A DNA stretch of 64,000 nt from an uncultured Saprospiraceae bacterium (GTDB lineage: Bacteria > Bacteroidota > Bacteroidia > Chitinophagales > Saprospiraceae). Shown here in pieces: positions 7,902-63,298 of this stretch. Each line of letters begins with the position of its first letter. Position 1 is the stretch's first letter. The DNA lies in the NCBI GenBank assembly GCA_937139495.1, contig CAKZQC010000027.1, positions 124,001-188,000 of the forward strand, read 5' to 3'. The notes beneath the pieces were generated by a model. It was not told the origin of the DNA. It ran no database searches and worked only from the letters and a program-made list of their open reading frames with translations. The position numbers and the translations under genes were made by a program.

Positions 7902-8018
7902 TTAGTACGGGACAAAACACTATTCTTAACGAGGTGCTAAGCACTTTGAAAGTGCTTAGCACCTTATTTGGAGGTTAAACAATGCCTTGGCTATAACTTA
8001 ACTTTTGTCCTGTACTTA
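7902..8018. mobile_element. Non-autonomous IS4-type element (MITE), copy 1
   Basis: 117 bp bounded by TTAGTACGGGACAAAA and TTTTGTCCTGTACTTA, the same termini as the IS4-family element at 46248-47433. The centre holds a 16-bp perfect stem (AGGTGCTAAGCACTTT at 7932-7947, paired with 7949-7964). It encodes nothing. It sits between the convergent 7074-7835 gene and the subtilase gene. No exact target-site duplication was found. Confidence 0.75.
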
Positions 8019-15077: not shown

Positions 15078-16847
15078 ATGTACAGAACGCACAATTGTGG
15101 GCAGCTCCGAATGGAGCATATTGGTCAAGAAATTACCCTATCTGGTTGGGTACAAACAAATAGAGATTTGGGACAAATGTCCTTCGTAGATTTGCGTGAT
15201 CGCTATGGAATTACGCAATTGGCATTCAATGTAGATAGCGATGCCGACCTGCACGAAGCATCTACGAAATTACGTAGAGAATATGTGATCAAAATCACGG
15301 GAACCGTCCGTGAACGCAGTAGCAAAAACAGCAAAATTCCAACAGGAAATATAGAAATAGACGTGACCAGCCTGGAGGTTCTTAACGAGGCAAAAACACC
15401 TCCTTTCACTATCGAAAATGAGACCGATGGTGGCGAAGAGTTGCGTATGAAATACCGTTATTTGGATTTGCGTAGGAAGCCAATCCAAGAGAATATAATT
15501 TTCAGAAGTAGCGTAGCCATCGAAACTAGAAAATACTTGGCAGAACAAGACTTTATAGAAGTAGAAACGCCTGTATTGATCAAAAGTACACCTGAAGGTG
15601 CAAGAGATTTTGTAGTACCTAGCCGTATGAACAAAGGACAATTTTATGCCTTGCCACAATCACCTCAGACCTTTAAGCAGCTGCTGATGGTGTCGGGTTT
15701 TGACAAATATTTTCAGATTGTAAAGTGTTTCCGTGACGAAGATTTGAGAGCGGATCGCCAACCTGAATTTACACAAATTGACTGCGAAATGTCGTTTGTG
15801 ACACAAGAGCAAATCCTACAAACTTTTGAGGGCTTAACCAAGCATTTATTCAAAGTATGTATGGACGTAGAGTTGGGCGATTTCCCTCGAATGACTTACG
15901 ATGAAGCACTACAAAAGTATGGTTCTGACAAACCTGATACGCGTTTCGGAATGGAGTTCGTAGAACTCAACGAAGTAGCCAAAGGACATGATTTTCCTGT
16001 CTTCGACAATGCCGAATTGGTCGTTGGAATTTGTGCCAAAGGACAAGCGGACAGTTACTCCAACAAAGACATCAAAAAACTAACCGAATGGGTACAACGT
16101 CCGCAAGTGGGCGCCAAAGGCTTGGTCTATATCAAATACAATGCAGACGGTTCGTTCAAGTCTTCTGCTGGCAAATTCTACAACGACGAGCAATTAGCTG
16201 CTTTTGCAACTGCTTTTGGAGCAGAGAAAGGCGATTTGATGCTTATCCTATGTGGCGAAACGGACAAAGTGCGTAGCCAACTTAGCGACTTGCGTCTAGA
16301 GATGGGCGACCGTATGGGCTTACGCATACAAGGCGAATTTAACCCACTTTGGGTAGTGGATTTTCCCCTACTCGAATGGGACGAAGATGCCGACCGCTTC
16401 CACGCCATGCACCACCCGTTCACGTCTCCCAAGAAAGAGGATATCGAGCGTATGCTCACCGGTGACCACGAAACCATGAAAGCACTTCGTGCCGATGCTT
16501 ATGATTTGGTGATGAATGGCTGGGAAATTGGCGGTGGTTCTATTCGTATTTACGATAGAGCATTGCAAGAAAAGAACTTCAAACTACTCGGATTTACCGA
16601 CGAGGAAGCCGAAGAACAATTTGGTTTCTTGATGGGTGCTTTTGAATATGGCGCTCCACCACACGGCGGTATCGCTTTTGGTTTCGATCGCTTAGTTTCT
16701 ATCATGAAAGGAGCGGCTTCTATCCGTGACTTCATGGCGTTCCCTAAGAACAACCAAGGGCGTGACATCATGATTGATGCGCCTGCCAATATCGACCAAA
16801 CACAATTGGAAGAATTGACTTTGAAGATTTTGCCTTTGGAGAAGTAA
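15078..16847 (+). CDS. aspS: Aspartyl-tRNA synthetase
   Basis: A class II synthetase of 589 residues, normal for the bacterial type. It has an N-terminal OB-fold anticodon-binding domain ([20 protein letters not shown]). Motif 2 reads [18 protein letters not shown] and motif 3 [13 protein letters not shown], with a bacterial GAD insertion domain between them. It charges tRNA-Asp. Its last 28 codons and terminator are duplicated at 19317-19475 with mostly synonymous differences, so this 3' end has been a recombination or integration site. Confidence 0.98.
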
Positions 16848-16872
16848 GGTTTGTTTCTATCAAATAAAATTG

Positions 16873-16918
16873 AAAAATCCAACTGTTTCTATTTTGTAGA
16901 AATGGTTGGATTTTTTTT
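16873..16918 (+). terminator. Terminator of aspS
   Basis: The stem AATCCAACTGTTTCTA pairs with TAGAAATGGTTGGATT with two wobble-type positions, followed by eight T residues. The displaced copy downstream has fully Watson-Crick pairs at the matching positions. Confidence 0.85.
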
Positions 16919-16956
16919 GTTGGGTATAGAAGTTAGAGCATATCTTAAACGACACT

Positions 16957-18459
16957 CTACAGACTGTTAAAATATTGATCTAAATCCACTAATCGCTGGT
17001 TCATCCATTGTTTTACAATAGTCTTTTCTTGAATTAAATCAATAGATTGCCCCCAATGTAGCATATCCAAATCAATAATATCAGACTGAAACAAAGGTGA
17101 AAATTGCTGTTCTATCATCAACTCTAAATTAGTACTAGAGCAAACATTACTATGCAAATCATTCCAACGATCTTTCATACGCTGCCTACAATCATCTACA
17201 TCTAGTGCAATCATTCGTTTGTATAAACCATTGGTCAATATGCGGCTACTATTATTACTATTACCATCCCAACCCCTCCCCCAAGTAGCATCCATATCCC
17301 ATGGTATAATTACAAAGGGCATATTTGGTTTCCTTTGCAACCAAATAAGATTCTTGCCAGAATTGTCTTGCCCGTAAGCTACATTCATTTGTATATAATA
17401 ATCAATAAGTAAATCTATATCCACTTGTTGTGCCAAATCTCGCCTAAAAATAGAATCAGAACTACGTACAATAAGTGTCCTAAAATCATACAATGGCTGC
17501 CAATTAATAGCTGTATTCTTGTTGGGGTGTTTCTGTTCCCAACCGTCCCAAATAGGCACTTGATGAGGGTGAGAGCTACTTCTAAACTGATCAAAACTAG
17601 TTGCCCCTTCTCCCCAAGAATAACTTTTGTAAAGTACACTTTCGGGGTTTGTAATTCCTATTTTTTGTGGACTCATTTGTTGATTGAGCGAATATAATCC
17701 TTGTTGTTGATTATTGACAAAAAGCTCCACGGGGCGAGTCGATATACTATGGCTTTCTGCATGAGTAGCAGTCATTGCTTGCCACAATTCAAAAGATAAC
17801 GCATTGCGGCATCTCGCTTGGTCTATATACATGCCATCTAGAATCCAGTCTTCTTGGGCAGGCCAATCAAAAAATGCCTCAGATTTTTTGGCTGCTACAT
17901 TTTGAGCACTTAAAAAATCAAAGCCATAGGAGCGTTTAGGATAGAAAGTCGAAATACCTCCACGGTATTCGATACCAATATAAGAGGTAATAGAAGGTTC
18001 CTGTATAGCAGGATAATTGATGGTTAGACGAGCTACATGTTTGGGCTCATCGCGCACTTTTTCTAGAGTAGCCACTTGCACAATCGGCAAATTGGTAAAA
18101 CTCAAACTAAAGGTTTGCTCTTCATTTGCTATCATGATGACAATTTCATAAGAGCGTTTGTATTCTACCGTGCCTAACGTATTCCATTCATTATTTTTTA
18201 GACGCTTGCCCTCAAATGAAACAATTGCACCATCTTTAAATTCTACAAAAGGGCGAAAGCTCGCTAAAGCATTCGGTTCTAAGCTGTAACGCAATGTATG
18301 ATATTGCTGATCAATAAAACAGTCTTTGCCATTGAGTCTCAAAACCAATGGAAATTGCAAATTTTCGTCTGGTCTTGGTGCAAAATTAATGGTTTCTTTA
18401 TAACAAGAAACAGCAATGCCGAATAATAATATTATTAAACAAAATCGAATTAATCTCAT
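16957..18459 (-). CDS. CotH-family lipoprotein
   Basis: A 500-residue lipoprotein (IILLFGIAVSCYK lipobox). Residues about 150-480 form a CotH domain with its landmarks: RGGISTFYPKRSYGFD, EDWILDGMYIDQARCRNAL, RPVELFVNNQQQGLYSLN and IPWDMDATWGRGWDGN. CotH proteins are protein-kinase-like; some bacterial members act at the cell surface, but the substrate here is unknown. The start overlaps the end of the DUF2490 gene by 4 nt (ATGA), so the two form one leftward operon convergent with aspS. The usual VTC and DUF4956 neighbours are missing. Confidence 0.88.
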   Translation of the reverse strand: MRLIRFCLIILLFGIAVSCYKETINFAPRPDENLQFPLVLRLNGKDCFIDQQYHTLRYSLEPNALASFRPFVEFKDGAIVSFEGKRLKNNEWNTLGTVEYKRSYEIVIMIANEEQTFSLSFTNLPIVQVATLEKVRDEPKHVARLTINYPAIQEPSITSYIGIEYRGGISTFYPKRSYGFDFLSAQNVAAKKSEAFFDWPAQEDWILDGMYIDQARCRNALSFELWQAMTATHAESHSISTRPVELFVNNQQQGLYSLNQQMSPQKIGITNPESVLYKSYSWGEGATSFDQFRSSSHPHQVPIWDGWEQKHPNKNTAINWQPLYDFRTLIVRSSDSIFRRDLAQQVDIDLLIDYYIQMNVAYGQDNSGKNLIWLQRKPNMPFVIIPWDMDATWGRGWDGNSNNSSRILTNGLYKRMIALDVDDCRQRMKDRWNDLHSNVCSSTNLELMIEQQFSPLFQSDIIDLDMLHWGQSIDLIQEKTIVKQWMNQRLVDLDQYFNSL

Positions 18460-19151
18460 AACTTAAATTGATAAACCAGTCGACAAAAGAAAAAAGAAAA
18501 CTTATCGTTAGGCTGCAAATTATGCTCATAGCCGACACCCACATCAAACCTTCCTATTTTAGTTTTAATTTCGTCACCAAGTACAAAGCGCATTTTTTTG
18601 AAATAAGGGTAACGGTTGATTTCATTCATTCGAATAAAACATTCCACACCTATATGTGCTTTATGTTTTTTATGCCACTTCCAAGTCGATTTGATACGAT
18701 GTCGAATATAGCTTGCGGTATTGGCAAAAGGGGTAGAACTCCCACTTCCAATTGCATTGATAAATTTTTGTTGGTAACGCATCCTATATGCTAATTTAAA
18801 GCGTTGGAGTGGACTGATTTGAAATTTACAATCAATATGATAACGAAGATTGTGCTGTCGATCCACTATGCTCTTATTTTCGTACGCATAACGAGTATAG
18901 CCACCAATACTAAAGTTTTTGTTAATGGTATATTCAACACCTGTTTGCCCTATTATATTTTCGAGCCGAGTACTGTTATGCTTAGTACGAACTTGTGCAG
19001 TAAAAGAGTATTCAAAATTTTTAGCAATTTTTTTTTGCAATTCTATACCTACCCAAGTACCAAAGTCACGAGTGACTTCAATTTTCTGAGCGGTTACTTT
19101 TAGGTAAGCCAAACACATTAAACAGCATGATAACAACAATTTACAAGTCAT
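18456..19151 (-). CDS. DUF2490-family outer-membrane protein
   Basis: 231 residues with a signal peptide (LLLSCCLMCLAYLKVTAQ) and repeated amphipathic beta strands with aromatic caps (FEYSFTAQVRTKHNS, FSIGGYTRYAYENK, FDVGVGYEHNL), ending in a terminal strand FFFCRLVYQFKL with a hydrophobic last residue. This is the pattern of small beta-barrels of the DUF2490 family, which are often encoded beside CotH genes. It is the first gene of the pair; the upstream region holds the displaced aspS end. Confidence 0.82.
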   Translation of the reverse strand: MTCKLLLSCCLMCLAYLKVTAQKIEVTRDFGTWVGIELQKKIAKNFEYSFTAQVRTKHNSTRLENIIGQTGVEYTINKNFSIGGYTRYAYENKSIVDRQHNLRYHIDCKFQISPLQRFKLAYRMRYQQKFINAIGSGSSTPFANTASYIRHRIKSTWKWHKKHKAHIGVECFIRMNEINRYPYFKKMRFVLGDEIKTKIGRFDVGVGYEHNLQPNDKFSFFFCRLVYQFKL

Positions 19152-19316
19152 AATCTAAATACATTAATCGATAAAATCAATTCAAAAATCTACTCTAACG
19201 GAACAAATTTATCAAAAAAATACTCAACTAAGTAATAAATTATTTTTTCTACTCTTTTAGACCTATTACTTTTGAGCATCTCCAGAAGTCCCCACCAAAC
19301 TACTTCAACTCAAACT

Positions 19317-19402
19317 GTGACATCATGATTGACGCTCCTGCCAATATCGACCAAACACAATTGGAAGAATTGACTTTGAAGGTTTTACCTTTGGAGAAGT
19401 AG
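19317..19402 (+). pseudogene. aspS: Displaced second copy of the aspS 3' end (28 codons plus stop)
   Basis: Aligns without gaps to 16762-16847 with 5 differences in 86 nt: GAT/GAC, GCG/GCT, ATT/GTT (Ile/Val), TTG/TTA and TAA/TAG. Four of five are silent, so this copy diverged while still part of a working aspS in another lineage, not as a dead duplicate. Similarity continues through the 3' untranslated region and terminator to about 19475. No aspS sequence precedes 19317. Confidence 0.88.
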
Positions 19403-19424
19403 GGTTTATCCTATCAAATAAAAT

Positions 19425-19469
19425 TAAAAATCCAACTATTTCTTTTAGTAGAAATAGTTGGATTTTTTT
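19425..19469. terminator. Terminator belonging to the displaced aspS end
   Basis: A 15-bp perfect stem (AATCCAACTATTTCT at 19429-19443, paired with 19450-19464) with a T-run after it and A-run before it. It lies 20 nt beyond the last gene of the cmr operon, so it could also end that leftward transcript. Confidence 0.8.
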
Positions 19470-19489
19470 ATTGGCTGGCTATCCACTTT

Positions 19490-19843
19490 TTAGGGATAAG
19501 CTCTAAATTGTTTGAACTCAAACAGCACTGTCTTTTTTCCGTTTACTTCTTCTATTACTTTTCTATCAGAAGTACTTGCCACACAAGTGATTCCTATTTC
19601 TTGCAGTAAGTTTACCAAAGCATAAGTAAACGTCATTTCTCCCATCAAGTGTACATCTGTTGGCTCTTCTTTTTGTATTTTATCTACATAAGTCGCTGCT
19701 AGAGCCTCTACCTCTTCCGTTGTCCAATCAGGATTTATTACAGGAAAAGGCATATCTTTTACTTCGCCATACTTCGTTTGAGCGGCTTCTAGCTGCACGA
19801 TGTTCCATCTGCTTGATGGGTGATTGCTTAGGTTTAGTAGCAT
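19490..19843 (-). CDS. Small Cmr-operon protein of unknown function (117 aa)
   Basis: The last gene of the cmr operon, 6 nt after cmr6. The protein begins with a beta strand and loop, MLLNLSNHPSS. It then has a FPVINPDWTTEEVEALAATY helix, a VHLMGEMTFTYALVNLLQ segment (Gly at the end of a strand followed by a helix, as in Rossmann-like folds) and a C-terminal VLFEFKQFRAYP. It has no signal or TM segment. I recall similar small proteins next to type III CRISPR loci but cannot name a family with confidence. A CARF-like ligand-binding or ring-nuclease role is only a hypothesis from fold impression and position. Confidence 0.75.
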   Translation of the reverse strand: MLLNLSNHPSSRWNIVQLEAAQTKYGEVKDMPFPVINPDWTTEEVEALAATYVDKIQKEEPTDVHLMGEMTFTYALVNLLQEIGITCVASTSDRKVIEEVNGKKTVLFEFKQFRAYP

Positions 19844-19849
19844 GGCTTT

Positions 19850-21070
19850 TTATTGTTTAGTTTCTTTGTAAGAGGCTTGAATTACATCTCCTTTCTTACT
19901 TACTTCTACTTCCACTACTATAACTTCATCTTTTTTGAGCGGATCAATTCCTCTATAGCGATCTATTTTCACATTCTTTTGGACATTTCCCTCATATACA
20001 TATATTTCTGCATAATAGGAAGATCTTGCTGACTTCGTAATTACTCCTTCCATCTCATACTTACCTCTTTTCTTAGGTTTTAATTTATCCTTATGCAAAA
20101 ACTGTGGCTTAACCTTAGGCTTCTCTTCACAATCAATAATCTCCCCCTCTGCTGCACTATCTTCATCTGTGGACATATAACCATACCCAACAGCTGTTTT
20201 AGCTCCTATTCCATTAAAGTCTAATGCTTCTTTTAGCATAGCAAAAGTCCTGTTAACTAAATTATTATTTTCTTCTGATTTGCTTCCTATCAAAAATTTA
20301 AATTTAGTATTTTTGACAGTCAAGAAGAAGATGGGTCTTGGTGATTGCCAGTCGGCAGGTGGCTTTTTAGCACCTTCATAATAATCGGGATAGTGATTGT
20401 TCATGATGTCTGGACTAATAGTAGGTACTTCTATGGGGAAAGCATCAAAAAATGTAATTTGACCTTTCCTAAAACCTTCATCATTATCTTTGTTATAAAA
20501 GCTCTTGTAAGGTTTAGTTTCAGTAGTTCCATCTTGTACAGAAACTTCGTTAGGACAACCAAAAATATCACAAAATTCTTTATTCTGAATAGCTAGTCCT
20601 TCATTACTATCAAAGTAATTCTCTACCCAGTAGTTTCTCAATACGCCCTTGATGGCACTAGCAGGAATATAAGGAATGCCATAAGTATGATGTAGGGTCA
20701 TGCCTACTTCATAAACAGAAGCAGTTCCTAATCCTACTATCAAACGCCAATCAAATTCATTCTCGTAAGAATACGATAAGTTATACCCCAAAGAATTTAT
20801 AGCTGCATAATGTTGGCTTTGTATTTTCTGGATAAAAGAGGCATCAAAAAAATCCTTATACTCGTCTATTCTCTTAGTGGGCTGTTTGCCCAATAACCAT
20901 TTTTTATCTTCAGGAGAAGGTTTATTATTCGTTCTATCTTTACTATAAAACAGAAATTTTTCGTTTTCTGCAAAAGGGAATTTATAGTACAACAGGCTGA
21001 AGTTAACGCTATTCCCAGCTGCTTTTATTTCGTTCTCACATGATTTAAATCTAGATATTTCACTAACCAT
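19850..21070 (-). CDS. cmr6: Cmr6, type III-B RAMP subunit with C-terminal extension
   Basis: A RAMP (Cas7-like) protein that caps the Cmr backbone. The family motif IPYIPASAIKGVLRNYW is near residue 135, and the Gly-rich loop FNGIGAKTAVGYGYMS near residue 290. At 406 residues it exceeds the usual length of about 250-330. The extra C-terminal part starts near KPKKRGKYEMEGVITKS and looks like a small OB-fold or SH3-like barrel (AEIYVYEGNVQKNVKI, DEVIVVEVEVSKKGDV). The start overlaps the cmr5 stop by one base (TAATG). Confidence 0.9.
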   Translation of the reverse strand: MVSEISRFKSCENEIKAAGNSVNFSLLYYKFPFAENEKFLFYSKDRTNNKPSPEDKKWLLGKQPTKRIDEYKDFFDASFIQKIQSQHYAAINSLGYNLSYSYENEFDWRLIVGLGTASVYEVGMTLHHTYGIPYIPASAIKGVLRNYWVENYFDSNEGLAIQNKEFCDIFGCPNEVSVQDGTTETKPYKSFYNKDNDEGFRKGQITFFDAFPIEVPTISPDIMNNHYPDYYEGAKKPPADWQSPRPIFFLTVKNTKFKFLIGSKSEENNNLVNRTFAMLKEALDFNGIGAKTAVGYGYMSTDEDSAAEGEIIDCEEKPKVKPQFLHKDKLKPKKRGKYEMEGVITKSARSSYYAEIYVYEGNVQKNVKIDRYRGIDPLKKDEVIVVEVEVSKKGDVIQASYKETKQ

Positions 21071-21492
21071 TAGTCGTTGTTTTTAGCAAGCTTTCGTAGC
21101 CAATTAACAAATGCAAAAGTTTCTTGAGTAGCAAATCTATACTCTTCATTTCCCCAATTAAGTACTAGTTTTAAAAGAGCCTCTGCTTCATCTTCTGTAA
21201 GCGTTTCTTTATTAGCCTTTGTCCTAAAATCAGCATTAAAGAAAGCCATTGGTTCTATTCCTAACCACTTTATTAAGCACAAGAATACATACTCCCAATC
21301 CTTAGACTTATTTTTACCTTTGTATGCTTTTAGAACAGCAAAAGACAATGTGTTTCTTAGTCCACTATTATGCATCATCATGGGCAGAGATTCCACGTGA
21401 GAACCATACATATCCATATTTTTTTCTTCCGCTTTTTTGACAAAGTTTAAAGCTGCTAAAGCTCTTTTTTGATCTATATCTAATCTAGCCAT
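21070..21492 (-). CDS. cmr5: Cmr5, small helical subunit of the type III-B complex
   Basis: 140 residues and all helical by pattern. It starts RLDIDQKRALAALNFVKK, followed by the Cmr5-typical SHVESLPMMMHNSGLRNTL and FAVLKAYKGK. Cmr5 packs along the Cmr4 filament as the small (Cas11) subunit and helps bind target RNA. It lies one base from cmr4 and overlaps cmr6 by one base, so expression is coupled. Confidence 0.9.
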   Translation of the reverse strand: MARLDIDQKRALAALNFVKKAEEKNMDMYGSHVESLPMMMHNSGLRNTLSFAVLKAYKGKNKSKDWEYVFLCLIKWLGIEPMAFFNADFRTKANKETLTEDEAEALLKLVLNWGNEEYRFATQETFAFVNWLRKLAKNND

Positions 21493-21493
21493 T

Positions 21494-22423
21494 CTATTCT
21501 GTGATTATGGTTGGTTTGATAATACCTTTGCCTAGTGTCGCATCGCCACCTAGCTGAAAGTTCCTATTTGCTATTCCTTTTTGGAAGTAATCAAGTAGTT
21601 TTTCGTAATCTTTTTCACCTTCAAAAATACCTTTTTTACCTTCAGGCTGAAAAATAGGACTTGCCAAAACCATGGTATATAATACCGACTCAGCTGGCAA
21701 AAACTCTTCATTGAATAAATTCTCTGTTGTGCCTGTGGTATTGTCAATTTTGATACGTGCAATTACTTCTGTGTGCAGTTTTACTAAGTCGGTAAAAGTA
21801 TTGTCAGAAACTACGACTAGTTGTTTATCTAGATTTGGAATACCTAATAAAGTTTTTAACTCAATAGCAGTATTTCCAATAGATTCACTTCCTACCTTAA
21901 AAACATAATCTTCTAAGACGACTTTATCTTGATTATTTGTATTTATAATACAATTATTACTAGTTCCAACTAAGACTTGATCAGTATCCTCTAAAGATGG
22001 AATATCAAAAGTATTCGTCAACTTACAAACTCCTGTTAATTCTGATTGGAATTTTTTCAATACTTTGGGACAAGTGACCCATGCAAAAATGCCTTTTAAG
22101 GACTTGACAGGAAACAGTAATAATCGAGCATCTAAAAAGCCTAATGCTGCTGCATGTTCTGCTCCATTGGTATCTGGACCAAAAGCTAGCTTGACTCCTT
22201 CATTGACAACTGTTTTAACATTTCCAGATGATGGATAATCAATTTCATCATCGCCTTCAAAGAGTTCTCTCAAAGCTCCTTTTAAACTTGATGCTTCTAC
22301 TTTGGGGAACCCTGTGTGCTTTTCTCTCTGAATAGGCAAATCAATATAGCCTAAATCACTGCCTGTTCCTGCATGAAGCGGCGTTTTGCAGTGTAATATC
22401 AATGGTGTTGCTTTTTTGTACAT
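21494..22423 (-). CDS. cmr4: Cmr4, backbone RAMP and target-RNA nuclease subunit
   Basis: A Cas7-type subunit of 309 residues. The N-terminus TPLHAGTGSDLGYIDLPIQ is the Cmr4 signature; the Asp in this loop (D23 or D28) would be the catalytic residue that cuts bound RNA at 6-nt steps. VEASSLKGALRELF is the RAMP helix, and the C-terminus has the Gly-rich LGGDATLGKGI. A 37-nt gap separates it from the upstream CARF gene, the longest spacing in the operon. Confidence 0.93.
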   Translation of the reverse strand: MYKKATPLILHCKTPLHAGTGSDLGYIDLPIQREKHTGFPKVEASSLKGALRELFEGDDEIDYPSSGNVKTVVNEGVKLAFGPDTNGAEHAAALGFLDARLLLFPVKSLKGIFAWVTCPKVLKKFQSELTGVCKLTNTFDIPSLEDTDQVLVGTSNNCIINTNNQDKVVLEDYVFKVGSESIGNTAIELKTLLGIPNLDKQLVVVSDNTFTDLVKLHTEVIARIKIDNTTGTTENLFNEEFLPAESVLYTMVLASPIFQPEGKKGIFEGEKDYEKLLDYFQKGIANRNFQLGGDATLGKGIIKPTIITE

Positions 22424-22460
22424 GTTTTTTTAGTTTTTTATTGAGATTGTGGAATTTATT

Positions 22461-24176
22461 TTATAAAAAGTCTATATCATTCAATTCCGCTACATCTACG
22501 TGTAATAAGAACTTGTCCCAATCTACTTTGCCATCTTTAGTTAAAGTCAACTTTCTCTTTAAGACCATTGTTTTAACAGAAAACGAGGTTGAGCCTAATT
22601 CATTTTTTAATTGAGAATCTTTTTCTAATTCTTGAAAGATAATAGCAGCATTTGAAATTTCCTCATAACGAGTATCTTCTGTATCAAAATTTAAGTCGCT
22701 GAATAATTCAAAATTGAATACTAAAAATAAGACTTCAATATTTTTATCTTCTTTCTGCTTTTTATTTATTTTTATTTGCTGAAGAACTCTCGCTTTTATT
22801 TGACTCAGGTAATCATCCTCTATAGAACAGTTGATGTAAGCCCATACTGTTTTACATTCTCCCAAAACAATAGCTGAAGTATCCTTATTAATGAGACTTA
22901 TATCTATATCTTTCACGTCGTGAGCTCCTCCCTCCTCATTCAATGATATGACTGTTTCTTCTTTATGAGATAATACATCTTTTTTCTCTTTATTAAATTT
23001 AGTAGGCTTGAACGTAGGAGATAAGTCCAAGTCGTAAGGTAAATCTTTAGTTTTTCTTTTACTTCTATCTATTGCAAAGAACTTATAACAGAATAGTTCA
23101 ACTAGTGGTCCCATTCTTTTACTGTCAATTAATTGTTTCTGTTTTGAATATTTTTGAAGAAGTAAACCAATTGTAGTTGGTTTCATCTGATTATCTTCAA
23201 AGAAAAGAACTTTCTCTCTAATCATTTTTTGATATATGAAAAATATAGACGTATATTTTTCTTTTTTTTCCTGTTTTCCTATTTCTAGTATTCTTTGTTT
23301 TTGTTCATCATTCAGATTGAGTTCTTTAAATTCCTTTTGAATATGTAAGTGTTGGTGTGTTAGCTTGTCAATATTGTCTAAATCAACTAAAGCAGAATAG
23401 ATGGGGGAAATATAGTTCAATGATGACTCTCTCATTAATAGCTCCCAATGATAAATATAATCCCAATCAAAATTAATAGGCATATTTCCGATAGTAATCA
23501 ACTGGTCGCTATCTTCATAAATATAATTGAGGGGAATGCTTTCTAGCTGCCCTACAATTGTCATTATCGGTAAGAGTGCCTTATATCCTCCAGATATATT
23601 GAAAATAACATTTTCCTTATTTATCTTTTCAGTTTCATCTCTTATTATGCTGTCCACTTTCTCAATTAAATCAAGCACAGCTTCATCTTCAAAGGTATCA
23701 GCAGAATCCACTTGTAAACCTTTTATGTATTGTAATTTTTCAATCGCTATTTTTTTCCCATCTATCTTATACCCTTCAAAAAAAGCCTTGACTAAATGTC
23801 CTGCACTCATACCTATTGCAGTATCAGAACAGAGTAGATAAATTTTAAATTTAGTACCTTCACTTTCTTCTACTATTTTGCAAATTGATTTTATTTCAGC
23901 TGAGGCATTGGTGTTTTTAATGGTAGTGTCATTCTGCCACTTCGACCATCTTTTGTTATTTTTATTTGTTCCTATTAGCCAACTTTTTTTCAAGTTATCT
24001 TCTATATTCCTAAAATTATCTGTTGAATAGTCACTCGCACTTATTCCGTCGAAATTATCTAATTGATCCTTTTTAAGAATACTCTTATACTTGCTATCTT
24101 TATAAGCCCTTTTGACCTTATCTTTCAAAAAATTACTAAAAACAGAAGTGCCAACTGTTGTTATTATATGTTTCAT
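22461..24176 (-). CDS. CARF-domain nuclease with C-terminal PD-(D/E)xK domain
   Basis: 571 residues encoded between cmr3 and cmr4. Residues 1-240 form a CARF domain: the N-terminus IITTVGTSVFSNFL and the later IFNISGGYKALLP (residues 191-203) are the nucleotide-binding landmarks of the APE2256/Csm6-like CARF class. A helical, wHTH-like middle follows (about 245-350). The C-terminal part has Glu360 (GPLVELFCYKFF), Asp425 (DIDIS) and ExK (VLGECK, 440-442), the pattern of a PD-(D/E)xK nuclease as in Can1/Can2/Card1. It should be switched on by cyclic oligoadenylate made by Cmr2. There is no HEPN R-x4-6-H signature. The gene looks more AT-rich than its neighbours. Confidence 0.85.
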   Translation of the reverse strand: MKHIITTVGTSVFSNFLKDKVKRAYKDSKYKSILKKDQLDNFDGISASDYSTDNFRNIEDNLKKSWLIGTNKNNKRWSKWQNDTTIKNTNASAEIKSICKIVEESEGTKFKIYLLCSDTAIGMSAGHLVKAFFEGYKIDGKKIAIEKLQYIKGLQVDSADTFEDEAVLDLIEKVDSIIRDETEKINKENVIFNISGGYKALLPIMTIVGQLESIPLNYIYEDSDQLITIGNMPINFDWDYIYHWELLMRESSLNYISPIYSALVDLDNIDKLTHQHLHIQKEFKELNLNDEQKQRILEIGKQEKKEKYTSIFFIYQKMIREKVLFFEDNQMKPTTIGLLLQKYSKQKQLIDSKRMGPLVELFCYKFFAIDRSKRKTKDLPYDLDLSPTFKPTKFNKEKKDVLSHKEETVISLNEEGGAHDVKDIDISLINKDTSAIVLGECKTVWAYINCSIEDDYLSQIKARVLQQIKINKKQKEDKNIEVLFLVFNFELFSDLNFDTEDTRYEEISNAAIIFQELEKDSQLKNELGSTSFSVKTMVLKRKLTLTKDGKVDWDKFLLHVDVAELNDIDFL

Positions 24177-24188
24177 GTTTTCTTTCGT

Positions 24189-25265
24189 TTAAGATTGAGC
24201 TAAGGTGTAAATACCAAATCCTTGATTATCATAATCTATATCATCAAAGGCATCATTGATGGAATGTGAAGAAAAGCAATTATTAAATATTTCTTTATTG
24301 ATAACTTCTACACTATAAATGCTTCCAGCAGGAACAGCTTTACGCATATACTTAGGTTCTTTTTTTTGCATATCAAAACCTCCTATAGATATAGGTTTGC
24401 CCACACAAGCAGCTATTAATTTGACATTTACTCCATCAATAAAACTGGGTAGCCAACCTTTTTTAAAAACAGCTGGAGTTAGTAAAACAATTTTAACGCT
24501 AGATTCCTCTACAAAATTTTCGTTTGATTTAATTTCAAAATTACTAGCCTCCTCAACAGCATAATAAGTTACCACTTTAGCTTCTCCCCCCAATTTTAAT
24601 AAGCCCTTGGGTGCAAGTTCAAGTCCTTCATAATCAATAGCAAATTTAATATCCCCTAGCCTATTCATCGCTACTCTATATAGCATACCGTCAACAGTCG
24701 TATTGGTTACCCTAGAGCGTTGAATACCAATCTTATTCTCTTTGTGAATCAATTTGTTGACAGGTGTAGCTTTCAACCTAGTACAATGACCTTTTTGATA
24801 CTGTCTGAACATGTCGTTCTTCAAAAAAGATAAGTCATCTAAAGATTCTATTTCTTTATCCAACTCTAGCAAGTTAATATTAGTCTCACTACTAGAGCTA
24901 AAAAATGCTTTTCTATTATTTTGCTTTAATAGCTCTACACGAATGTAATTATCCCAATCTTCATCTTCTAAATCATCTTCAGTTTTGTATTTTTTCTGTA
25001 CCAAATCCAATGGCATGGGGAAATATGGACGTCCATCTTCTGTTACATAAATCCCCTTAATAACTAAATCCTTAGTAGGATCACCCTCTTTATTCGCCAA
25101 ATGCAATTCCTCAGGGTGTTGAGAAAAATAAGCCGAACGCAATGCTCCATAAAATACAGACGGAGGTGGCGGAAAAATGCCATTTGCCCAAGTCTCATCG
25201 CCCATCGTAAAGGGCTTGCCATCTCTAAAAAATAAAGTGTCTAAAGCTTCTATTTGAATAATCAT
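24189..25265 (-). CDS. cmr3: Cmr3, Cas5-like subunit of the type III-B complex
   Basis: 358 residues. The N-terminal motif LDTLFFRDGKPFTMGD and the FPPPPSVFYGALRSAYF segment are characteristic of Cmr3, which holds the 5' tag of the crRNA and contacts Cmr2. The C-terminal MRKAVPAGSIYSVEV is the conserved Gly-Ser region. It lies 7 nt after cmr2 and 12 nt before the CARF gene. Confidence 0.92.
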   Translation of the reverse strand: MIIQIEALDTLFFRDGKPFTMGDETWANGIFPPPPSVFYGALRSAYFSQHPEELHLANKEGDPTKDLVIKGIYVTEDGRPYFPMPLDLVQKKYKTEDDLEDEDWDNYIRVELLKQNNRKAFFSSSSETNINLLELDKEIESLDDLSFLKNDMFRQYQKGHCTRLKATPVNKLIHKENKIGIQRSRVTNTTVDGMLYRVAMNRLGDIKFAIDYEGLELAPKGLLKLGGEAKVVTYYAVEEASNFEIKSNENFVEESSVKIVLLTPAVFKKGWLPSFIDGVNVKLIAACVGKPISIGGFDMQKKEPKYMRKAVPAGSIYSVEVINKEIFNNCFSSHSINDAFDDIDYDNQGFGIYTLAQS

Positions 25266-25272
25266 TGAGAGT

Positions 25273-27108
25273 TTAATTTTCTAGTGAGTTAATGGGATTG
25301 AGTTCTTTCTGTATAAATTCACAAATCTGTAATCCATGAATCCAATTATTGAAATTATCTTCAATAACACCTTTTCCTTCTTCAAAAATGGAAAACCAGT
25401 TATCAGCAAGCGTTCTCATTGTTAAGGCATTGCTTTTATCAGAAGCTCTCAATATCGTTCGCTTCAATTCCATTTCTAAAAGCGGGTGCAACTCTTCTTT
25501 GAGTTCTCCATTTTTATTTATTAAGGAATTGAACTGAACGCCTAATACTCGGATAAATTGGTCAGCCAAATCTTCTTGTTTCATCAAGGTTATGGTCTGA
25601 AGAAATAGATCAGTTATCCATTTTTCGCCTTTTTCGTTTTTCCACTTCCAAACGGTCTCATGGATTTCGCCAGAATGCTTCAAAACCGCAATTGCAAAAG
25701 CATTTTTGGTAGGTTGGGTACTGATTCCATCTATTTTCTTGGCTTTCTTTTCCATCTGGCGAGCGTAACTCAATACTTCGCCCAAAGGGTGTTTGTAATG
25801 AGCAATAGCAACACCTGCTGAGAAAGTGAGTTTCAAGTGTGTGTAGTCTAGTTCAGTTAGTTTCTTGTTTACTTTATCATCAAACAATTCCCTCAAGTCT
25901 TTCAGAACCTCAAACAAGTGATTGAGATTGACAAATCCCAAAAAGTCATCTCCTCCAGCATATACTGTCTTGCCTTTATTGCCCGAATCTAGATAAGTAC
26001 TCGCTGCTGTTGCAAACTTACCTAGTAAACTAGAAAGATCTTCGTGTTCTTTGGCAGTTTTACATTCTGCTAGCTTCTGCCCCATTCCATCAGCATCAAA
26101 TGCCAAGATAGCATAGTACTTTGCCAACTTTAAATTTTTGTCTTTTATATCACGTTGGAGTACTTTGTATTTCTCATCGAAATTACTTCGTGTAGCTCCT
26201 TGCATTATGTTAGCAGAAGCTAATTTTGTTTCTGTATGATTTTCCTCATAAAGAAATTGATATTCTTTTTTCTCCTTTTCAGTAATCAAATTGACAAATT
26301 CGCAGTAGGATACAATATTGGTATCACAAAGCTGCTTCAAAGTATCCTTCAAAGCAATATAAGCGACGGAAGGAAATGATTCTATTTTGTCAGTTTTGTA
26401 CAATCTCTTAGCAAAACTAACCGCACACAAACCCTCTCCTTCTTGTATATGCTTTAATGTTACATTATTACCATTAGGTTGTGTTTCGTAATAAACAATA
26501 TCTTCATCAAACAAGAATTTACGTTCTTTCCACGTTTTTTTAGCGGTGCTTTTATGGATGTCTCTTTCATTTTTTCTGTAGAACTTTACATTGTATTCTC
26601 CGTTGAGCGAACATTTTCTACCCTTTTCTTCAAACTGATCGAAGTAACGCACATTCTTAACCGCTCCCATTAGGCGTTCGATAGCAGTAATATGTTTACC
26701 ATAATCTTGCTCTATAGCATTAGCAGGTTGAGCCACCCAATACATTTTTAGAAAATCTCTTAACTGAGCTTCTATTTCTTCTCTTTGCGTGGCTTGTTCT
26801 AGTACTTTTTCTGAGATGGTATTAACAAAAAAGTCTTCTAAGTGTCTTTTCAACTCGTTTCCAACTTGCTGTATATCATCACTCTCTACTAAACACAACA
26901 GGCGATTGGGCTTACTCTCTACGGTAGCCGCTGGAAAAATTAAATCTTGATCGCTCAACACTTTTTTTTCACTGATAAGCCATCTCAATGCTTCATCAAT
27001 CAAACTAGAAAGCATTTGACTACCTGCATATAAATCTTGGGTCTTTCTGGCTTGTGCTATGAACGATTGCACGGGTCCTATCGTGAATAGGAATAAATAT
27101 TTTGGCAT
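25273..27108 (-). CDS. cmr2: Cmr2 (Cas10), large subunit with GGDD cyclase site and no HD domain
   Basis: 611 residues, shorter than full-length Cmr2 of about 800-900. It begins directly with the segment FTIGPVQSFIAQARKTQDLY, which in longer family members follows the HD nuclease domain; no HD motif is seen. The palm/cyclase domains are present: LAFDADGMGQKL (about 334) and VYAGGDDFLGF with GGDD at residues 385-388. It should therefore make cyclic oligoadenylate upon target-RNA binding but lack the HD-dependent DNase. Only single Cys residues remain where zinc knuckles are common (RKCSLNG, GLCAV). Confidence 0.93.
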   Translation of the reverse strand: MPKYLFLFTIGPVQSFIAQARKTQDLYAGSQMLSSLIDEALRWLISEKKVLSDQDLIFPAATVESKPNRLLCLVESDDIQQVGNELKRHLEDFFVNTISEKVLEQATQREEIEAQLRDFLKMYWVAQPANAIEQDYGKHITAIERLMGAVKNVRYFDQFEEKGRKCSLNGEYNVKFYRKNERDIHKSTAKKTWKERKFLFDEDIVYYETQPNGNNVTLKHIQEGEGLCAVSFAKRLYKTDKIESFPSVAYIALKDTLKQLCDTNIVSYCEFVNLITEKEKKEYQFLYEENHTETKLASANIMQGATRSNFDEKYKVLQRDIKDKNLKLAKYYAILAFDADGMGQKLAECKTAKEHEDLSSLLGKFATAASTYLDSGNKGKTVYAGGDDFLGFVNLNHLFEVLKDLRELFDDKVNKKLTELDYTHLKLTFSAGVAIAHYKHPLGEVLSYARQMEKKAKKIDGISTQPTKNAFAIAVLKHSGEIHETVWKWKNEKGEKWITDLFLQTITLMKQEDLADQFIRVLGVQFNSLINKNGELKEELHPLLEMELKRTILRASDKSNALTMRTLADNWFSIFEEGKGVIEDNFNNWIHGLQICEFIQKELNPINSLEN

Positions 27109-27117
27109 AGTTTGGTT

Positions 27118-28284
27118 TTAGGATTGGATATAATTGGATTTTATTTTTACTTGCTCTATAAATTTGAGCAATAGTCTGTCATTTTCTTTTGGAAAAGGAT
27201 ATTCTCGTTTTTCCTTAGTAGTGCCTTCCTCTTTGTATAATAAGTTAGGATTATTACTCGTAAAGTGTAAGCTAGCATTAGGAGGCATAAACTTACCTTG
27301 TAAGTGCGTAACTACCCAATGATATTTACCCGCTGCATTTTTAATTATTGTTATCCATATTGGAGAAGATCTTCGTTTATAATCTTTAGGCACAAATTCT
27401 ACACTATTTTCAATCCAACCTCTTCCACTTTGAACTCCAACAGGCATTCCGAAAGCTGCTTTTTGGTCTAAAGTATCCATCGTAAATGTTCTATCTTTTC
27501 TTTTTTTAGCTCCTTTTCCCTTTCTCACCCCCCTCATCAATCCACCTATATCCTCCAAAGCTTGCTCCCAAGTAGAAAAGTCTTTTTCTGAGAAGAAAAC
27601 TTTTCTACGATTAAGCGTACTATACTCAGGAGATTGACCAAGTAGATTATTAGGATTAAATATGCTTTTAATAGCCGCCATATTTTGCTTAAAGTTATCA
27701 GCTATATTTTCAGCAGAACTTAAGTTGAAAATTAAGTCACTATCTTTAATTATATCAATATCACCTGATATACGTTTTATGCTGATAGCTCCAGCTCCTC
27801 GTCTTGCTCTAGACCCTAGACTCCCCAAGTTTCCGAATACCCAAAAACAGGCACATACTTTTAGTAAATCCTCTTTACTTCTGCTAGAAAGTCTAATTTC
27901 AAATTGATTATTAATATCTAAACCAGTCCTACCTTTTTGCAATTCAATAAGAGAATAAAATAGATAATTTAAACCATCCCTATCATTTCGCTTTATGCTA
28001 TCTATGTTGATGAAGCTCGCTTTTTTTTGGTCAAACTTGATTCTTAGAGTAACACTACTCTTTATTGGAGAGCTGTCACTTACCCCTCCAAACAATTTTT
28101 CTTCTTCTTTCAGAAGATTCTTAATACCTCCTTCTTCATCAGTTGCCAAATGTCCATTCAAGGCACGCCACCAAAAACGTAAAGCCCCTTTGATAGAAGG
28201 AGCTCTTAATTCAGGCGTTTGACCATCTGCCCCTGCCAAAAATAGGGGCGTAATGGTCTCGCAGGTAAAAGTTATTTTGTACAT
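27118..28284 (-). CDS. cmr1: Cmr1, RAMP subunit at the 3' end of the crRNA
   Basis: 388 residues and the first gene of the operon. The N-terminus has the Cmr1 signature TPLFLAGADGQTPELRAPSI followed by KGALRFWWRALNGH. GSRARRGAGAISI is the Gly/Arg-rich loop of the RAMP fold. Cmr1 contacts the 3' side of the crRNA and target. I could not find a convincing TTTG/TAnnTTTG pair upstream on the minus strand. Confidence 0.93.
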   Translation of the reverse strand: MYKITFTCETITPLFLAGADGQTPELRAPSIKGALRFWWRALNGHLATDEEGGIKNLLKEEEKLFGGVSDSSPIKSSVTLRIKFDQKKASFINIDSIKRNDRDGLNYLFYSLIELQKGRTGLDINNQFEIRLSSRSKEDLLKVCACFWVFGNLGSLGSRARRGAGAISIKRISGDIDIIKDSDLIFNLSSAENIADNFKQNMAAIKSIFNPNNLLGQSPEYSTLNRRKVFFSEKDFSTWEQALEDIGGLMRGVRKGKGAKKRKDRTFTMDTLDQKAAFGMPVGVQSGRGWIENSVEFVPKDYKRRSSPIWITIIKNAAGKYHWVVTHLQGKFMPPNASLHFTSNNPNLLYKEEGTTKEKREYPFPKENDRLLLKFIEQVKIKSNYIQS

Positions 28285-42546: not shown

Positions 42547-42603
42547 ACCCTAATATACAAATAGAGGTGCAGCAATGCTGCACCTCTATTTGTATATTAG
42601 GGT
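42547..42603. repeat. 57-nt palindrome with 28-bp perfect arms
   Basis: The arm starting ACCCTAATATACAAATAGAG (42547-42574) pairs without mismatch with 42576-42603 around a single A. It lies 33 nt upstream of bioD and 71 nt beyond the stop of the 42675-44312 gene, both leftward. There is no T-run directly after the stem on the minus strand. It may work as a strong roadblock terminator, a bioD leader hairpin, or be a palindromic repeat unit. Confidence 0.75.
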
Positions 42604-63174: not shown

Positions 63175-63298
63175 TGAGTACAGAACAAGCGTTAATAATA
63201 CTTATTCCAAAGGCATTCTTTAGCCTCCAAATAAGGTACTAAGCACTTTGAAAGTGCTTAGTACCTCGTTAAGAATAGTTTTTTATCCTGCACTCAAA
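63175..63298. mobile_element. Non-autonomous IS4-type element (MITE), copy 3
   Basis: 124 bp, in the opposite orientation to copy 1, between TGAGTACAGAACAA and TATCCTGCACTCA. The central stem at 63234-63266 differs from copy 1 by one base in each arm (AGGTACT/AGTACCT in place of AGGTGCT/AGCACCT), so pairing is kept. No exact target duplication was found. Confidence 0.75.

Follow-up and report, generated by a model that had tools for sequence, protein, structure and literature searches.

A displaced, mostly silently diverged aspS gene end beside a type III-B operon in a Saprospiraceae bacterium: a possible scar of recombinational insertion

In an uncultured bacterium of the Saprospiraceae, the end of the intact aspartyl-tRNA synthetase gene aspS recurs 2.5 kb downstream of the gene, at the border of a type III-B operon, with two other genes between the two ends. 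We propose that this displaced gene end is the scar of a recombinational insertion into the 3' end of aspS, its topology being that of a single (Campbell-type) crossover, a reading whose chance of being right we judge to be about even. The analysis is centred on a window of 64,000 nucleotides from contig C27 of the assembly, in which the following features are concerned. Judged by aspS, the closest named matches of this genome belong to the Saprospiraceae.

15078-16847, plus strand: aspS, intact aspartyl-tRNA synthetase gene (589 aa; Pfam tRNA-synt_2, OB and GAD domains)
16762-16847, plus strand: proximal aspS end, duplicated part (alignment with 19317-19402)
16873-16915, plus strand: terminator T1, between aspS and the 3' end of the CotH gene (terminator scan; fold)
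16957-18459, minus strand: CotH-domain gene (PF08757, E 4e-37)
18456-19151, minus strand: DUF2490 gene, overlapping the CotH start (PF10677, E 7.9e-21)
19316/19317, no strand: joint between the DUF2490 upstream region and the displaced aspS end (left edge of the alignment)
19317-19402, plus strand: displaced aspS end, codon 562 to stop, with no gene before it (alignment)
19426-19467, minus strand: terminator T2, now at the 3' end of the leftward cmr operon (terminator scan; fold)
19490-28284, minus strand: type III-B operon (Pfam and PADLOC matches)

Results

Anatomy of the two aspS ends

A first-pass annotation had described a second copy of the aspS gene end, and alignment confirms that this copy is real: the proximal stretch (16762-16917) and the displaced stretch (19317-19469) are identical in 143 of 156 columns (91.7%), the longest exact run being 45 nt. 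The duplicated unit comprises the last 86 coding nt of aspS and approximately 70 nt of 3' region with the terminator. At its left edge the displaced copy begins abruptly, the sequence further left being unlike aspS, and at its right edge the similarity stops at the terminator foot. When the displaced stretch is searched against its own genome, it matches itself, the end of aspS (E 7.2e-56) and, twice on the reverse strand, the terminators, which are self-complementary; no further match was found in this genome at E <= 0.001. Rfam gave four matches on 16600-20000 (E 0.013-0.76), all far below their gathering scores, and the one that falls on a terminator is named for unrelated RNAs.

The partial gene end is directly repeated on both flanks of the intervening block, and the CotH/DUF2490 pair does lie between the two ends, as had been annotated. 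CotH, DUF2490 and the csx20/cmr operon are all encoded on the minus strand, and each aspS end faces a convergent, leftward operon across a hairpin. The cmr operon, which had been described as starting after the second end, in fact ends there. It consists of csx20, cmr6, cmr5, cmr4, a CARF-RelE-like gene, cmr3, cmr2 (cas10) and cmr1, so that the type III-B effector set (cmr1, cmr2/cas10, cmr3, cmr4, cmr5 and cmr6) is complete. The CARF-domain gene between cmr4 and cmr3 (22461-24176, 571 aa) has CARF-RelE as its best PADLOC match.

Differences between the copies are mostly silent

Codon by codon, the two ends differ at five coding positions (GAT/GAC, GCG/GCT, ATT/GTT, which changes I to V, TTG/TTA and TAA/TAG), four of which are silent, in agreement with the earlier count. 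When this segment is mutated at random, 1.09 changes are silent on average, and the observed number has P = 0.012 if only the displaced copy drifts. Under a two-regime null, in which both copies change and the proximal one does so by silent changes only, the window copy gives P = 0.059. When the window is pooled with two further displaced copies described below, in G233 and in unit 3 of G367, 15 of 18 changes are silent (P is 4e-8 for plain drift and 4e-5 for the two-regime null); the pool leaves out G367 unit 2, the G679 copy and the fourth G367 unit. The silent excess is also present in G233 and in one G367 unit, and the view that the displaced end was once under selection within a working aspS is supported by these sequence comparisons. 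The further argument that a self-made duplicate would not show such a pattern is reasonable, yet too strong for the window alone given the two-regime value.

Displaced aspS ends recur in other genomes but are rare

A search profile built from 27 aspS tails matched 356 of 398 Saprospiraceae genomes, 11 of them with two or more matches, and displaced aspS ends were accepted in three of the 398, namely the genome of the window, G233 and G367. Across 392 genomes of the phylum the profile matched 348 and added G679 as a displaced-end case; G638, with its tail match at a contig start, was left out of the count. Displaced aspS ends recur, but are rare. With the displaced stretch as a DNA query against 60 relatives, four genomes matched, the own genome included, and the three others (E 5e-7 to 1e-3) matched in their own aspS ends, G024 also in a hairpin-like stretch.

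Several candidates were set aside. In G001 two contigs overlap exactly over 127 nt, and since a search for a third contig bearing this aspS stretch found none, the case was treated as a contig break. In G225, G243 and G249 there are two long aspS frames, each on its own contig, G415 carries one long and one partial frame, the matches in G369 and G192 lie at contig ends or on partial frames, and G321 has a single weak match on a different contig.

In G233, the displaced end lies 0.13 kb behind aspS, and its 56-nt exact run is followed by another C-terminal sequence. Six of its seven in-frame nucleotide changes are silent (P = 0.0006). The displaced copy ends in EIEKGES, closer to the genus mate G062 (EIEKSGA) than the proximal TTPSTD, and nucleotide identity with G062 over 84 nt is 61 versus 60, which does not tell the native copy apart. 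In G367, three further tail-plus-terminator units of approximately 121 bp each stand in tandem without cargo, giving four copies when the gene's own end is counted. Five of six changes in unit 3 are silent (P = 0.004), and unit 2 is decayed, with four of 15 silent (P = 0.27). The array, at L162 1500-2024 (G367:C609), consists of the aspS end with a perfect hairpin and lies near the contig end. In G679, a 178-aa ORF separates the two ends, and the displaced copy is decayed, with frameshifts.

The G367 units suggest that plain tandem duplication also takes place, as a second process, and they lend weight to the following origin for the window as well: an in-place duplication by slippage or unequal exchange, insertion of DUF2490/CotH between the copies, and later allele exchange of the working end with related strains, which would supply the silent differences. 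Cargo-free units, one of them decayed, are what G367 displays, and the window by itself fits change in both copies. However, this course requires several steps, DUF2490/CotH must land exactly between the copies, and the silent excess over three copies is hard to obtain under the two-regime null without exchange. We consider it unlikely, though a serious contender.

The slot behind aspS carries variable cargo

Six genomes of the G679 genus were read, and in five of them the slot between aspS and a gene that we take to be ku could be compared; its cargo differs or is missing. In this slot G722 has no ORF of at least 60 aa, G512 has one of 180 aa, and G431 has three, of 201, 159 and 63 aa. G624 carries a 452-aa astacin/lectin protein there, along with purA and a crp-like gene, and G679 has the 178-aa ORF and the displaced end, likewise accompanied by purA and the crp-like gene. 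The approximately 10 kb read in G691 did not reveal ku. The order aspS, terminator, 178-aa ORF is also present in G739, of another genus in the G679 family, at 41% protein identity. The earlier suggestion that aspS was the target accords with this variable slot and with the displaced ends in other genomes.

Closer to the window, the aspS proteins of eight genus mates are 79-81% identical to that of the window's genome, and in the stretches read around aspS in these eight and in four other genomes of the family, none of the 20 window genes considered was found apart from aspS. Likewise, 93 other aspS loci, some of them from the same records, contain none of the 20 window genes except aspS. Adjacent DUF2490/CotH pairs occur in the genus mates G001, G002, G003 and G006, and the own genome has a second pair at L152 7721-9912 (G000:C21), 50-53% identical to that of the window, which does not settle which block came in.

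Terminator stability weakly favours cmr as the old neighbour

Both terminators stand between convergent genes, and the terminator scan assigns T1 to the plus and T2 to the minus strand. T1 folds at -23.2 kcal/mol on the plus strand and at -16.1 kcal/mol on the minus strand, where it is weaker because two of its wobble pairs turn into mismatches, whereas T2 is of about equal stability on both strands (-21.9 kcal/mol on plus, -22.0 kcal/mol on minus). This difference weakly favours the view that T2 has long served both aspS and cmr, and that cmr is hence the old neighbour.

The same folds bear on the reverse assignment, in which a donor's truncated aspS end, with T2 and cmr, was joined behind a resident DUF2490/CotH pair. 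Type III operons are accessory genes, and the cmr operon is A+T rich (34.2% G+C, compared with 39.2% over 400 kb of this genome), both of which would suit an incoming cmr block. Yet the DUF2490/CotH block is A+T rich too (35.6% G+C), so that composition does not decide, a single crossover at aspS accounts only for the block between the two ends, and T2 appears tuned for both strands. An incoming cmr block seems to us improbable.

No integrase match or common attachment core seen at aspS

The first-pass annotation saw no integrase, and Pfam likewise detects no integrase domain in the 20 window genes scanned; the five PF00589 matches of the genome all lie on contigs other than C27. Pfam assigns no mobility domain to CotH or DUF2490, and ten cargo or neighbour proteins taken from comparable slots include six without any Pfam match and none that matches a mobility family. 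In the four cases compared, the distance from the left edge to the last base of the stop codon is 86, 119, 78 and 154 nt, and no common core is seen; the G233 edge would move to approximately 107 if a few chance matches were dropped, and old edges may have eroded. Since contig integrase, common left edge and cargo mobility domain are all lacking, a site-specific mobile element at aspS is not supported by the sequence. The idea of a mobile or recombining segment that brings its own gene end is favoured in its recombining form and lacks support as a site-specific element.

Integrase-borne elements whose attachment site lies in a gene 3' end restore that end with incoming DNA and displace the old one. 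The aspS locus has the identical topology, the gene end being restored on one side and the displaced end standing on the other, and displaced aspS ends occur in several genera, so a remnant that has lost its integrase deserves mention. The aspS locus differs from such elements in showing no integrase match on the contig, no fixed core (which eroded edges could blur) and no mobility domain in the scanned cargo, and we rate a remnant of this kind as quite improbable.

A chimeric assembly of two strain variants is highly improbable: the silent differences resemble strain variation and the G001 contig break falls in the aspS end, but a chimera would join within shared sequence, whereas the joint at 19316/19317 lies between unlike sequences, has no N and belongs to a contig of 323 kb.

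Gene-end repeats and other repeats

To look for copies within the same genome, 981 gene ends from 1.42 Mb were scanned, some of the loci being identical or nearly identical records. Besides aspS, it returned insertion-sequence copies (L206, checked), repeat arrays in L212, and the pairs L203, L132 and L209/L208, which are similar over the coding end only. The scan missed at least one gene, the ribBA row being absent. With looser settings, 1.97 Mb yielded 19 rows, and two of the 11 examined cover a likely gene end together with its 3' region. In L086 (14511-14777 and 16099-16365), a small helix-turn-helix-like gene has its end and 3' region repeated 1.6 kb downstream (92.9% over 268 columns). 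In L121 5676-6029 (G001:C31), the end of a gene presumably like ribBA is repeated exactly over 127 nt, 227 nt apart; this is perhaps an assembly artefact, because 127 nt equals the contig overlap of that assembly. The displaced-end rate of aspS (3/398) looks above background in this comparison, which is small and was not blind.

Additionally, the G233 genus contains a dispersed structured repeat of approximately 90 nt (L158 3705-3790 in G233; also L257, L258, L260, L261, L263, L264, L267, L253, L262, L252 and L259). It is laid out as a hairpin CTGAAAC-TGAT-GTTTCAG, the motif TTCTCTC, a second hairpin and an end near GTTCAT. Over 13 aligned copies, 11 of the 16 pairs in both hairpins have changed on both sides in compensatory fashion, and six loci gave no Rfam match at E <= 1. 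The right end of the repeat abuts the displaced aspS end in G233. At L258 1242-1600 (G382), the repeat lies beside a tRNA-Val(gac) gene, and after the repeat a part of this gene occurs a second time, which resembles the layout at aspS in G233. No long flanking repeat is seen at six other copies (L260, L263, L267, L253, L264 and L262).

Three further repeats were noted in the window. A dispersed palindromic repeat with TTTTGTCCTGTACT ends stands at 8003, 40019, 40133 and 46252, with 15 sites across 480 kb of the genome; a 93-nt inverted repeat pairs 7904-7996 with 63202-63294, 55 kb apart and 87% complementary; and 42547-42603 is a perfect 28-nt inverted repeat with arms 1 nt apart.

Discussion

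A single-crossover model for the aspS locus

In the crossover reading, DNA of a related lineage, comprising its own aspS end (from codon 562 on), a terminator and DUF2490/CotH, would close into a circle and cross over once with the resident aspS end. The incoming end would complete aspS, so that the gene stays intact, the DUF2490/CotH pair would land behind the completed gene, and the old truncated end, still joined to T2 and cmr, would be pushed downstream. The product would read intact aspS, block, abrupt joint, truncated end, terminator and old neighbour. We infer that DUF2490/CotH rather than cmr is probably the incoming block and that the donor was probably of a related lineage; the best reading is that insertion at aspS would need no integrase.

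An exact run of approximately 45 nt is sufficient for crossover, and the homology between the two ends is long enough in this respect. The crossover reading is favoured by that run together with the abrupt edge in unlike sequence and the end at the terminator foot, by the pooled silent excess, by left edges without a fixed core on a contig without an integrase match, and by the variable cargo behind aspS in the G679 genus. Against it stand the failure to find a strain with an empty site, the lost synteny around aspS in the genus mates, the absence of a donor order aspS-DUF2490/CotH from the 93 other aspS loci, the two-regime value of the window alone, the cargo-free G367 units that look tandem-duplicated, homology that extends over just 156 columns at 92%, and the G233 nucleotide identity to genus mates, which leaves the native copy undistinguished.

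Comparison with known systems

An experimental precedent in E. coli also favours the crossover reading. In that lacZ study (PMC3240628), 56 of the 60 clones from one experiment yielded the PCR product that marks a duplicated gene end, and in 14 sequenced clones 109-950 bp were duplicated, from which its authors concluded that a single crossover had taken place with a circle lacking part of the homology. The aspS locus shares with these insertions a duplicated gene end flanking the insert, the lack of an integrase and a joint in unlike sequence; the lacZ insertions involve laboratory plasmids and identical sequence, whereas at aspS the ends are diverged, the cargo is natural and the mechanism is deduced. 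The remaining 4 of the 60 clones are ascribed there to homology-facilitated illegitimate recombination, which resembles the aspS locus in pairing one homologous with one illegitimate joint but, in the same paper, generally yields an insertion with a deletion of similar size, where aspS has a duplication (PMC3240628). Core-gene hotspots of horizontal transfer without mobile elements (PMC5635113) likewise combine variable cargo beside a core gene with no need for an integrase; their model invokes a double crossover at both flanking core genes and leaves no displaced end, unlike the aspS locus, which has one.

Implications

In a broader and more doubtful form, the aspS 3' end may be a recurring, integrase-free docking place in Bacteroidia, at which segments would bring their own aspS end and terminator and so protect the essential gene, ladders of once-working ends recording successive gains of cargo. 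If the crossover reading is right, a displaced end that differs silently can be read as a fossil of gene gain without a mobile-element enzyme, one that identifies the gene used as anchor and tells us that this gene was functional in the donor. Counts of such scars across genomes could then gauge how often core-gene recombination adds cargo rather than swapping it.
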